A DNA stretch of 64,000 nucleotides from Stella humosa. GTDB taxonomy: Bacteria > Pseudomonadota > Alphaproteobacteria > ATCC43930 > Allostellaceae. Shown here piece by piece: positions 27,156 through 29,914 of this stretch (the first letter of the stretch is position 1; every line of letters begins with the position of its first letter). The position numbers and the translations under genes were made by a program. The stretch is from the NCBI RefSeq assembly GCF_006738645.1, contig NZ_AP019700.1:2430001-2494000 (forward strand). Direction: 5' to 3'. The notes under the pieces are model-generated. The model saw only the letters and a list, made by a program, of their open reading frames with translations. It had not been told where the DNA came from and searched no databases.

Positions 27156-27791
27156 ATGGAGCCCAACATTCCGCGCCGCGGCATGATGCTGGTGTTGTCG
27201 TCGCCGTCCGGCGCGGGCAAGACCTCGATCTCGCGCCGCGTGCTGGCCGAGGAGCCGGAGTTGAAGATGTCCGTGTCGATGACGACGCGGACGCGGCGGG
27301 CCGGCGAGGCCGAGGGCATCGACTATTATTTCGTCGACCTCACGACCTTCAACCTGATGGTGAACCGGCGCGAGTTCCTGGAGTACGCCAAGGTCTTCGA
27401 CAATTACTACGGCACGCCGCGCAGCACGGTGGAGAAGGAACTGGCCGGCGGTCGCGACGTGCTGTTCGACATCGACTGGCAGGGCACGCAGACGCTAGCC
27501 CAGGCCGCGCGCGACGACCTGGTCAGCATCTTCATCCTGCCGCCGTCGACGGCCGAGCTGGAGCGGCGGCTGCGCACGCGCGCCCGCGATTCGCTGGACG
27601 AGGTGGCGCGGCGGATGGGCCGGGCGGCCGACGAGATGAGCCATTGGCCGGAATACGACTACGTCATCGTCAATCGCGACCTGGAGGAGAGTGTGGCCCG
27701 GGTGCGTGCGATCCTGGTGGCCGAGCGCCTGCGGCGGCAGCGCCAGCCGGGCCTGGCGGAGTTCGTGAAGCGCCTGCGGGAAGGGCAGTGA
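27156..27791 (+). CDS. gmk: Guanylate kinase
   Basis: 211 residues. ATP-dependent phosphorylation of GMP to GDP. The P-loop SSPSGAGKTS is at about residue 15, followed by the GMP-binding TTRTRRAGEAEGIDYYFV and EFLEYAKVFDNYYGTP, and the lid IFILPPSTAELERRL. ATG 27156 has GGGAAAG 8 bp upstream; the open frame to 27009 lies inside yicC. A short GC hairpin follows the stop. Confidence 0.96.
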   Translation: MEPNIPRRGMMLVLSSPSGAGKTSISRRVLAEEPELKMSVSMTTRTRRAGEAEGIDYYFVDLTTFNLMVNRREFLEYAKVFDNYYGTPRSTVEKELAGGRDVLFDIDWQGTQTLAQAARDDLVSIFILPPSTAELERRLRTRARDSLDEVARRMGRAADEMSHWPEYDYVIVNRDLEESVARVRAILVAERLRRQRQPGLAEFVKRLREGQ

Positions 27792-27808
27792 GGGGGCCGG
27801 CCGCCCCC
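27792..27808 (+). terminator. Possible GC hairpin after gmk
   Basis: GGGGGC (27792-27797) can pair with GCCCCC (27803-27808) around a 5-nt loop, directly after the gmk TGA. The following bases CGTCCTTG are only weakly T-rich. It would separate gmk from the XRE/RTX module. Confidence 0.4.
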
Positions 27809-27818
27809 GCCGTCCTTG

Positions 27819-27884
27819 TACAGTGACTTATTGATAAAACTGCTTGCTTGCTCCGGCCGGTTCCGATATACAGTGACTTATTGA
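27819..27884 (+). repeat. Two 16-bp direct repeats, probable operators of the XRE gene
   Basis: TACAGTGACTTATTGA occurs exactly at 27819-27834 and 27869-27884, 50 bp apart. Each holds the small palindrome AGT-G-ACT. A weaker third copy, with AGT-A-ACT, lies at about 28118-28134. The second copy overlaps the -10 of the promoter at 27844-27872 and the first lies just upstream of its -35. This arrangement suits repression or autoregulation by the downstream XRE protein; binding is inferred. Confidence 0.7.
27844..27872 (+). promoter_or_regulatory. Likely promoter of the XRE/RTX module
   Basis: TTGCTT (27844-27849) and TATACA (27867-27872) are separated by 17 bp. Transcription would start near 27879, giving a leader of about 300 nt before the XRE gene. 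The leader would contain the paired segments at 27936-28092. Confidence 0.45.
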
Positions 27885-27935
27885 CGTGGTTCGAACGTCA
27901 CGCCGCCTGATGAGACGCCCGGCAAGCGTCGAAAC

Positions 27936-28092
27936 GGGTCACCGTAGCGGCAGCCTCGATGTTCTCCGGCAGCGGGCATCACATTCGCCCCCCCGTATGC
28001 CCGCCGCCGGTCCCAGTCCGCCCGACCGTCGAGGCTGCCGCGCACTACCCTTGGACGCCACCTGCGTCGCCCCCCGGCGCAGGTGGCTCCAA
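27936..28092 (+). other. Highly self-complementary region, candidate structured leader RNA
   Basis: This 157-bp stretch of the 384-bp gene-free interval 27792-28175 folds on paper into three stems. P1: GCGGCAGCCTCGA at 27947-27959 with its exact complement at 28029-28041. P2, inside P1: 27966-27979 with 27997-28010, 13 pairs and one mismatch. P3: 28051-28066 with 28078-28092, 15 pairs and one bulged C, including GCCACCTGCG against CGCAGGTGGC. It is between the proposed promoter and the XRE start. No credible protein is encoded. It could be an RNA leader, a small RNA or a palindromic DNA element. Confidence 0.5.
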
Positions 28093-28127
28093 GTTTCCGG
28101 TGGACCGGCGGCGAGATATCCAGTAAC

Positions 28128-28140
28128 TCGATGACATCGA
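28128..28140. promoter_or_regulatory. Perfect palindrome before the XRE gene
   Basis: TCGATG-A-CATCGA at 28128-28140 is a perfect 6+1+6 palindrome adjoining the degenerate third repeat and 36 bp before the XRE ATG. It could be a further operator half-site pair. A 9-bp near-tandem repeat (AAACCGATC, AAACCGATG) follows at 28141-28158. Confidence 0.4.
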
Positions 28141-28175
28141 AAACCGATCAAACCGATGACGAAGGGAGGTTGGTG

Positions 28176-28487
28176 ATGTACGCGCAATATGTGCGTTCGG
28201 CCGACCATGCGCGCCAGCTTCGCCAGGATGCCGGTCGTTGGCTTCGTTCCTGCCGGGAGGCGCGGGCGATGACCCAGCGCGACTTGGCGGAGCGGGTGGG
28301 CTTGCGCTACTACACCTTCATCTCGCAGATCGAGGGCGGGCACGGGCGCATTCCGCCCGACCAGTACGAGGCATGGGCAATCGCGCTCGACATCGAGCCG
28401 CGGGACTTCGCCAAGTCCATGCTGCGCTACTATGATCCCTTCACCTTTCGACTCCTCTTCCCGGAGGAAATGGCGGTTTCCGCCTAG
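28176..28487 (+). CDS. XRE-type helix-turn-helix regulator
   Basis: 103 residues. The helix-turn-helix spans about residues 27-60 (MTQRDLAERVGLRYYTFISQIEGG, in part), with the recognition helix near YYTFISQIE. The flanks MYAQYVRSADHARQLRQDAG and PPDQYEAWAIAL are shared by a distinct group of alphaproteobacterial XRE proteins. ATG at 28176 is chosen because GGGAGG lies 6 bp upstream; the ATG at 28131 sits within the palindrome. The RTX gene starts 44 bp downstream, so the two form an operon. It probably binds the repeats at 27819-27884. Confidence 0.85.
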   Translation: MYAQYVRSADHARQLRQDAGRWLRSCREARAMTQRDLAERVGLRYYTFISQIEGGHGRIPPDQYEAWAIALDIEPRDFAKSMLRYYDPFTFRLLFPEEMAVSA

Positions 28488-28531: not shown

Positions 28532-29914
28532 GTGGGGGACGTGATCGAGCTGTTCGGATCGCCGGTGCGATCGGGCGGCTGGACCGAACAGGAAAAGGCC
28601 GAGCTCTATCGCGCCGCGAGCCTTCTGGGCGCGCGGGGCTTGCCGTTCGATTCCGAGTTCGGCACGACCGACGACGGCGACCCCTGGTTTCTCTTCATCG
28701 GCCGCGGCACCGGCGAGGTGCTGGCCCATTTCGCGCGCATCGACGGCACCTTCGTGGTGCACCACGCGGCCGCCGACGTCGTCTTCGAATCGCGCGACAT
28801 TCGCGACCTCGTCGATCGCGTCCTGGTCTTCCCCGACCGCTCGGTCGGCCGGGCGTCGGGCGATGCGTTCCATGCCCATATCGCGGTCACGGTGGCGGCC
28901 CTGGGCCTGTCGCTGGAGAGCCTGTCGCAGTTCTTCGAGGGCGGCGAAGCCGAACTGGCGCCGGAAGGCGAGGCGTCCGCCGCCCAGGCAGACGATGCGC
29001 CGGCCGCCCAGTGGCTGCTCGACGATGACGAAGCGCTGCCGGGCACCGACGACGAAACGATCGCCGGTGACGATGGCGGCGAGCCCGAGGGCGAGCCGGC
29101 CGATCCCGCGCCGCAGGTTCGCGCCGTCGACGTGGAGGAGCCGCAGGAAGAGCCGATCGCCGCCGCCGGCGATTCGCCGACGCATGTCGATCCGGTTCGC
29201 GACAGCTTCCACGTCGATCTGGACATGCCCGAAGGCCTGCCGCTCGTGCCGGTCGACCTGACCTTCGACGGCGTGGTCCTATCGGGTGGCCAGGCCGACG
29301 ACACCCTGGTTGGCAGCGACCAGGCCGACTTCCTGTCCGGCGGCGACGGCCGCGACCTGATCATCGCCAATGGCGGCGACGACATCGTGGCGGCCGAGGG
29401 CGGCAACGACACCGTCCTGGGCGGCGACGGCAACGACATCCTGGCTGGCGGCACCGGCGACGACCTGCTGCATGGCGGCAAGGGCGACGACCTGATGCTG
29501 GGCGGGGCGGGTGACGACCTGCTGTATGGCGGCAAGGGCAACGACACGCTGCAGGGCAATGCCGGGCAGGACACCCTTTCCGGCGACAGCGGCGACGACC
29601 TGCTGCTGGCATCGAGCGGCGAGGCGGTGCTGATCGGCGGCAACGGCCAGAACGTCTTCCATTTCGGCGAGGGCAGCGCCGTTGCCTATGCCGGCGAGGA
29701 CCGCGACATCTTCGTCTTCGAGGAGGGCGAGCGGGCCGACGTCGTCATCCACGACTTCGACCCCGAGATGGACGAGTTGTACTACCTGAACGGCAGCGGC
29801 ATCCGGGTGGAGGTCGACACGCGGTCGCCGGCCGGCGACGACCTGATCCTGCACCCCAGCCTGGGCGGCACCCTGACCATTCTCTTCGACGACCCGCACC
29901 CCGCCGGAACTTGA
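28532..29914 (+). CDS. RTX-repeat (hemolysin-type) calcium-binding protein
   Basis: 460 residues, very acidic. Residues 1-130 form a globular domain of unknown type (DPWFLFIGRGTGEVLAHFARIDG in part, then IRDLVDRVLVFPDRS). Residues 145-235 are a Pro/Glu/Asp-rich linker. Residues about 250-375 hold some ten GGxGxD nonapeptides, such as GGDGNDILA, GGTGDDLLH, GGKGDDLML and GGAGDDLLY, which form a Ca2+-binding beta-roll. The end (FDPEMDELYYL ... GGTLTILFDD) resembles the C-terminal part of type I secretion substrates. No Sec signal is present and no ABC/MFP exporter is in the window. GTG 28532 has GGAGGG at correct spacing. Confidence 0.83.
   Translation: MGDVIELFGSPVRSGGWTEQEKAELYRAASLLGARGLPFDSEFGTTDDGDPWFLFIGRGTGEVLAHFARIDGTFVVHHAAADVVFESRDIRDLVDRVLVFPDRSVGRASGDAFHAHIAVTVAALGLSLESLSQFFEGGEAELAPEGEASAAQADDAPAAQWLLDDDEALPGTDDETIAGDDGGEPEGEPADPAPQVRAVDVEEPQEEPIAAAGDSPTHVDPVRDSFHVDLDMPEGLPLVPVDLTFDGVVLSGGQADDTLVGSDQADFLSGGDGRDLIIANGGDDIVAAEGGNDTVLGGDGNDILAGGTGDDLLHGGKGDDLMLGGAGDDLLYGGKGNDTLQGNAGQDTLSGDSGDDLLLASSGEAVLIGGNGQNVFHFGEGSAVAYAGEDRDIFVFEEGERADVVIHDFDPEMDELYYLNGSGIRVEVDTRSPAGDDLILHPSLGGTLTILFDDPHPAGT

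Follow-up and report, generated by a model that had tools for sequence, protein, structure and literature searches.

A type I hammerhead ribozyme and a helix starting at its predicted cleavage site in the leader of an XRE-RTX operon of Stella: a probable cleave-and-cap arrangement

The interval between gmk and the XRE-RTX genes

We analyzed a window of 64,000 nucleotides (G000:C1:2430001-2494000) of the 5.83 Mb genome of Stella humosa, in which a leader interval is flanked by gmk and, on the same strand, by a two-gene unit encoding an XRE-family regulator and a protein with RTX repeats (Table 1). The order gmk, leader interval, XRE gene and RTX gene is common to this genome and those of the three congeners used for comparison, namely Stella vacuolata ATCC 43931, Stella sp. 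ATCC 35155 and the metagenome-assembled genome SJ646. The regulator is 89–93% identical in the congeners, and the spacing of 30–46 nt between the XRE and RTX genes is kept in all four species. When 99 relatives were searched, long alignments to the leader interval were obtained in these three congeners only (77–80% identity), and a genome-wide search of the 5.83 Mb returned a single copy.

An initial annotation had described three inverted repeats within 157 nt of this interval, and all three are found in the sequence. The first is perfect over 13 bp (27947-27959/28029-28041) and extends, beyond what had been recognized, to a 15-bp helix that includes one G-U pair (27947-27961/28027-28041) and which we term P1. 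The second (P2) pairs 13 of 14 positions (27966-27979/27997-28010) with an A-C mismatch at 27971/28005, and the third (H3; 28051-28066/28078-28092) contains a bulged C28056. The claim that this pairing exceeds chance also holds, as the 157-nt segment folds with -96 kcal/mol compared to -61 ± 3.8 kcal/mol for dinucleotide shuffles (z = -9.1), none of 200 of which folded equally well. Compensatory changes among the relatives are found in P1, P2 and H3, and none of the three congeners, all of which have both genes, lacks the segment. The proposal of a palindromic repetitive element is contradicted by the single copy in the genome and the synteny in all congeners, and a REP/BIME-type repeat was rejected since dispersed copies are lacking. 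A separate small RNA product may exist but is not needed to account for the stems. The idea of a regulatory leader for the XRE/RTX message gains from a promoter-like pair, the operon arrangement and the compensatory changes, but a hammerhead ribozyme at the start of the leader had escaped notice: the 157-nt interval leaves out the 45 nt immediately upstream, which are the most informative.

Table 1. Features of the gmk/XRE-RTX leader region and the genes downstream (window coordinates)
Feature	Position	Strand	Remarks
Operator-like repeat 1, TACAGTGACTTATTGA	27819..27834	+	motif YMCAGTRACTYNNTGA; probable XRE binding site
Putative promoter	27844..27872	+	TTGCTT 27844-27849, 17 nt, TATACA 27867-27872; inferred
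Operator-like repeat 2	27869..27884	+	motif YMCAGTRACTYNNTGA; overlaps -10
H0 small hairpin before ribozyme, GACGT/ACGTC	27883..27898	+	compensatory changes in 3/4 species
Type I hammerhead ribozyme	27902..27951	+	descriptor scan, viral-only covariance model, core intact in four species
Hammerhead stem I	27902-27906/27947-27951	+	5 bp, open-ended
Hammerhead core CUGAUGA	27907-27913	+	
Hammerhead stem II	27914-27918/27926-27930	+	5 bp
Loop II GGC	27921..27923	+	proposed pseudoknot with tail GCC 27953-27955; invariant in four species
Hammerhead GAAA	27931-27934	+	A27934 pairs with U27945
Hammerhead stem III	27935-27937/27942-27944	+	3 bp plus A-U
Predicted cleavage site A27946^G27947	27946..27947	+	hammerhead NUH rule; GUA, GUC in G001
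P1 capping helix, 27947-27961 with 28027-28041	27947..28041	+	15/15 pairs in four species
P2 hairpin, loop UUCGCCCCCCCG at 27984-27995	27966..28010	+	compensatory changes; loop 12/12 invariant
Joining strand CCAGUCCGCCCGA	28013..28025	+	13/13 invariant in four species
H3 hairpin	28051..28092	+	compensatory changes in 3/4 species; weak or absent in G002
Operator-like repeat 3, TCCAGTAACTCGATGA	28119..28134	+	motif YMCAGTRACTYNNTGA
XRE-family helix-turn-helix regulator, 103 aa	28176..28487	+	HTH_3 PF01381, 25.8 bits vs cut-off 23
460-aa protein with RTX calcium-binding repeats, second operon gene	28532..29914	+	PF00353, 5 stretches

The most conserved non-coding block of the four-species alignment begins upstream of the 157-nt interval and contains the hammerhead, in which the fraction of invariant columns (0.82) compares with 0.75 for the gmk and XRE coding sequences, so that the ribozyme is constrained about as strongly as the coding sequence. 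Operator-like repeats 2 and 3 reach 0.81–0.83, the sequence between repeat 3 and the ATG 0.49 and most remaining intergenic stretches 0.15–0.31. The most conserved segments are the P2 loop and the joining strand (1.00), both fully invariant in the four species and without a known partner or motif. The small hairpin H0 is missing in one congener (G002). Upstream of the ribozyme, TTGC and TATACA elements spaced by 17–18 nt occur in all four species; a strict sigma-70 scan did not report this putative promoter, from whose position transcription is expected to start near 27879.

A type I hammerhead ribozyme with viral relatives

Directly 5' of the stems and overlapping the first of them lies a complete type I hammerhead ribozyme with the block GCCGC-CTGATGA-GACGC-CCGGCAA-GCGTC-GAAA-CGG-GTCA-CCG-TA-GCGGC. 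The core elements CUGANGA, GAAA and NUH together with the three stems are complete in all four Stella species, and all 14 hammerhead pairs are kept. Changes in the core are limited to the free position 7 (CUGAAGA in S. vacuolata, G003) and, in G001, to GUC in place of GUA and an extra A before stem II; the loops also differ among the species. Since the hammerhead stems are invariant, covariation within the genus cannot test them. An extension of stem I past 5 bp was inconsistent between species and was dismissed. A descriptor requiring the core and stems matched once in the window and not at all in simulated sequences of matching dinucleotide composition (5 Mb and 50 Mb). We regard the assignment as a type I hammerhead as close to certain, and consider it very likely that the ribozyme would cleave itself in vivo.

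Loop II could form a contact of 3 bp (GGC/GCC) with the tail following stem I in all four species. Pseudoknots of this kind are a known feature of hammerheads, some of which are strongly slowed by shortened loop contacts (PMC3088659). A search of viral contigs with one core pattern gave 96 stretches, 80 of which were obtained as loci (L141-L220) containing about 100 type I hammerheads; together with one prophage-like locus, the descriptor identified 104 distinct hammerheads in these sequences. Many viral members directly follow stop codons, often with several per contig. Their loop II is complementary to the post-stem I tail over at least 4 bp in 46 of 85 cases, compared to 14 on average and at most 23 in 500 re-pairings, and this pseudoknot covaries.

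Rfam did not identify the ribozyme: at the gathering threshold no family matched the locus, RF00163 was unlisted there at an E-value of 10, and RF00008 scored 14.7 bits against a cut-off of 48.5. As the Rfam library likewise gave no gathering match on a prophage-like locus with tandem hammerheads (L095), we attribute this failure to the sensitivity of the models; judged by these two loci, the present Rfam models overlook bacterial type I hammerheads of the Stella/phage type. The permissive matches (6C and microRNA families) were dismissed as chance matches of GC-rich sequence. 6C RNA (RF01066) was rejected at 20.2 bits against a cut-off of 47; it shares with the leader hairpins with C-rich loops, and H3 is the only hairpin that resembles it.

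We thus employed a covariance model (R2) built from 139 aligned matches from viral loci only, with Stella excluded, although its rows had been aligned through a model built from Stella (R1) and the pattern used to fetch the loci resembled Stella stem I. The top match of R2 in the S. humosa genome is this locus (57.6 bits, E 2.2e-10; runner-up 22.8), and the four Stella genomes score 57.6, 57.3, 57.7 and 55.1 bits against a background of about 22. Among 385 genomes of the class, for each of which few candidates were scored, R2 at 1e-5 matched only the two sampled Stella genomes. Other genera gave weak R1 matches (20–30 bits), whose cores were broken in the cases examined and which were set aside with the exception of the clusters in genome G019, and nearly all of the 53 matches of the plain core pattern in the 385 genomes lacked stem II complementarity by eye. 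R2 found seven further matches on two contigs of G019. These contigs (C86 and C125; L241, L242) represent a phage-like region in which type I hammerheads, seven or more in tandem, flank genes such as that of a polymerase processivity factor, and their proteins match phage families such as the terminase small subunit and the DNA polymerase processivity factor.

The closest relatives of the Stella ribozyme are viral. Compared to the described bacterial and phage type I hammerheads (PMC3088659), it has the same core, the same topology and the same CCGC/GCGG in stem I, the loop II–tail contact lies in equal register, and the predicted cut precedes GCGG in both. The differences concern its setting and its periphery: it is present as one copy beside gmk in a conserved host operon, whereas the phage and prophage-like hammerheads form tandem clusters, as on C86 and C125, and the known bacterial/phage type lies in phage regions. 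Unlike the viral members, it also has a short stem III of 3 bp and a helix of 15–18 bp starting at the cut. The Stella leader was absent from 50,697 phage records, and the invariant motif of P2 and the joining strand was absent from the viral contigs. No hammerhead was found in the stretches fetched around XRE orthologues outside Stella, which argues that the ribozyme is not general to this XRE family.

The P1 helix and the possible roles of the ribozyme

The first base of P1, G27947, is in all four species the first base after the predicted cut, 229 nt upstream of the XRE start codon in S. humosa. All 15 pairs are formed in the four species; six of them vary and two are changed on both sides (27956/28032 from U-A to C-G; 27960/28028 as U-G, U-A and C-G). 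A shuffle control of this covariation is weak with four sequences (61 of 500), but sliding of the partner strand abolishes the pairing. In 2000 mononucleotide shuffles no helix of at least 15 bp started within 3 nt of G27947, the maximum being 12. Among 103 viral hammerheads the helix starting at the cut does not exceed 10 bp, compared to the 15–18 bp in Stella, and we thus regard the capping stem as specific to the Stella locus.

The lower five pairs of P1 use GCGGC (27947-27951), which is also the 3' strand of hammerhead stem I, so the two pairings are mutually exclusive; stem I is compatible with the upper ten P1 pairs. Stem I is perfect in all species, while the 3' strands of P1 contain G-U pairs in three. 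Folding calculations favor stem I for short early transcripts in three of the four species, S. vacuolata (G003) being the one in which stem I lies outside the minimum-energy fold at every length tested. For the full-length leader P1 is favored in all four, by 2.6–12.6 kcal/mol, and could hence silence a ribozyme that has remained uncut.

We consider it probable that the 5' leader of the XRE-RTX operon, a type I hammerhead followed by a capping stem, works by cleavage and capping. The sequence, structure and conservation of the ribozyme and the coincidence of P1 with the predicted cut are established, whereas we infer the start of transcription, the cleavage, the strand exchange and the effect on stability. 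Transcription would begin some 22 nt before the ribozyme, and the nascent RNA would form stem I and the loop II–tail contact and be cleaved between A27946 and G27947. P1 would displace the freed 5' fragment by exchange of the five-nucleotide strand, which would render the cut irreversible and leave the regulator mRNA with a 5'-hydroxyl end buried in the P1 helix. A 5'-hydroxyl end within a helix should resist 5'-end-dependent decay by RNase E. The resulting XRE-RTX message would be uniform whatever its start point and probably long-lived. For capping or insulation as the main role of the ribozyme we see an even chance.

This arrangement resembles RiboJ, an engineered sTRSV hammerhead, originating from a plant virus satellite RNA, combined with a 23-nt hairpin (PMC6206723): in both cases a hammerhead lies in the leader, the cut drops the upstream RNA, and a hairpin stands at the new 5' end, predicted in the case of Stella, before the ribosome-binding site and start codon. 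A hairpin at the 5' end has been suggested as one reason for the raised expression with RiboJ (PMC6206723). In Stella, unlike in RiboJ, the 5' strand of the hairpin doubles as a strand of stem I, so that cut and capping would be coupled. The glmS ribozyme also cleaves itself in a bacterial mRNA leader, in a metabolite-dependent manner and with decay as the consequence; it has a different fold, and no cofactor is known for the Stella ribozyme.

What is least certain is whether P1, more stable than stem I in the uncut RNA, only takes over after the cut or holds back cleavage as well; in the latter case the leader would be a switch. P1 would then be an anti-ribozyme arm, and a signal at the P2 loop and joining strand (a protein, small RNA or ligand) would toggle GCGGC between stem I and P1, the XRE-RTX output being set by the cleaved fraction. 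The mutual exclusion in four species with the above energy gaps and the two stretches of 12 and 13 nt in the interior of P1, completely invariant and without a pairing partner, speak for such a switch, which we nevertheless consider unlikely: there is no ligand, known aptamer or Rfam match, full-length folding favors P1 in all species, and strand exchange after cleavage accounts for the overlap without any signal. We know of no naturally allosteric hammerhead. If the switch existed, it would be a natural regulated hammerhead in which the invariant interior of P1 senses a signal controlling cleavage of a host regulator mRNA. Equally doubtful is that the hammerhead serves to cut readthrough RNA from gmk into separate gmk and XRE-RTX messages. 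The co-orientation of gmk, the lack of an intrinsic terminator in 27780-28180 and the frequent clustering of viral family members after stop codons are in line with this role, and processing by prophage hammerheads flanking genes has been proposed (PMC3088659). However, gmk is separated from the ribozyme by the conserved promoter-like pair and by operator repeats, so that most XRE transcripts probably start in this stretch, and transcript separation leaves the coincidence of P1 with the cut unexplained.

Cleavage and capping also has to be weighed against readings in which the stems alone matter. A transcription attenuator or terminator would draw on their strength and on the covariation of H3 in three of the four species, but no T-run follows H3 or any other stem, no terminator-like site is present, and H3 is weak in G002; an intrinsic terminator was rejected for these GC-rich stems without a T-run, and attenuation or termination is highly improbable. 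We give just as little credence to a domesticated or decaying phage ribozyme without a present role, beside hairpins that would function, for example, as a protein-binding or translation-control leader. The viral relatives and the exceptional conservation of the P2 loop and joining strand would fit this explanation; yet all required core bases and all 14 pairs are kept between flanks that are 15–31% invariant, and a ribozyme in decay would not keep just its catalytic positions intact.

The role of hammerheads in prokaryotes has been described as an open question (PMC6155905), and the bacterial examples known so far are associated with phages and prophages (PMC6155905, PMC3088659). While the ribozyme class is known, a solitary hammerhead kept vertically in a host operon and a capping helix coinciding with the cut are new with respect to the open-access literature. 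For a bacterial hammerhead, standing alone in a leader whose conserved chromosomal operon has a putative promoter and operator-like repeats, and being kept there in four species, would be a rare setting outside prophages. If our interpretation is correct, the locus would offer a concrete and easily testable example of a ribozyme taken into service for the expression of host genes, as well as a natural analogue of RiboJ, which serves as an insulator in synthetic biology.

Operator-like repeats around the leader

The motif YMCAGTRACTYNNTGA occurs three times in the 5.8 Mb genome, each time at the leader locus, and is also locus-specific in the congeners save for one extra site in S. vacuolata. 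The three TACAGTGACTT sites are candidate operators, for which autoregulation by the XRE protein would be the natural reading. Sites resembling TACAGTRACTT are also present upstream of XRE orthologues in other alphaproteobacterial families, where 13 were found compared to a mean of 3.4 and a maximum of 11 in mononucleotide shuffles; the exact TACAGTRACTT lies upstream of two orthologues, at -62 (L066) and -65 (L067). These sites in distant families suggest that an autoregulatory operator may be conserved for the XRE family. The extra site in S. vacuolata, a further copy of TACAGTGACTTATTGA (L065, G003:C1:4338531), may be a second site at which the regulator acts.
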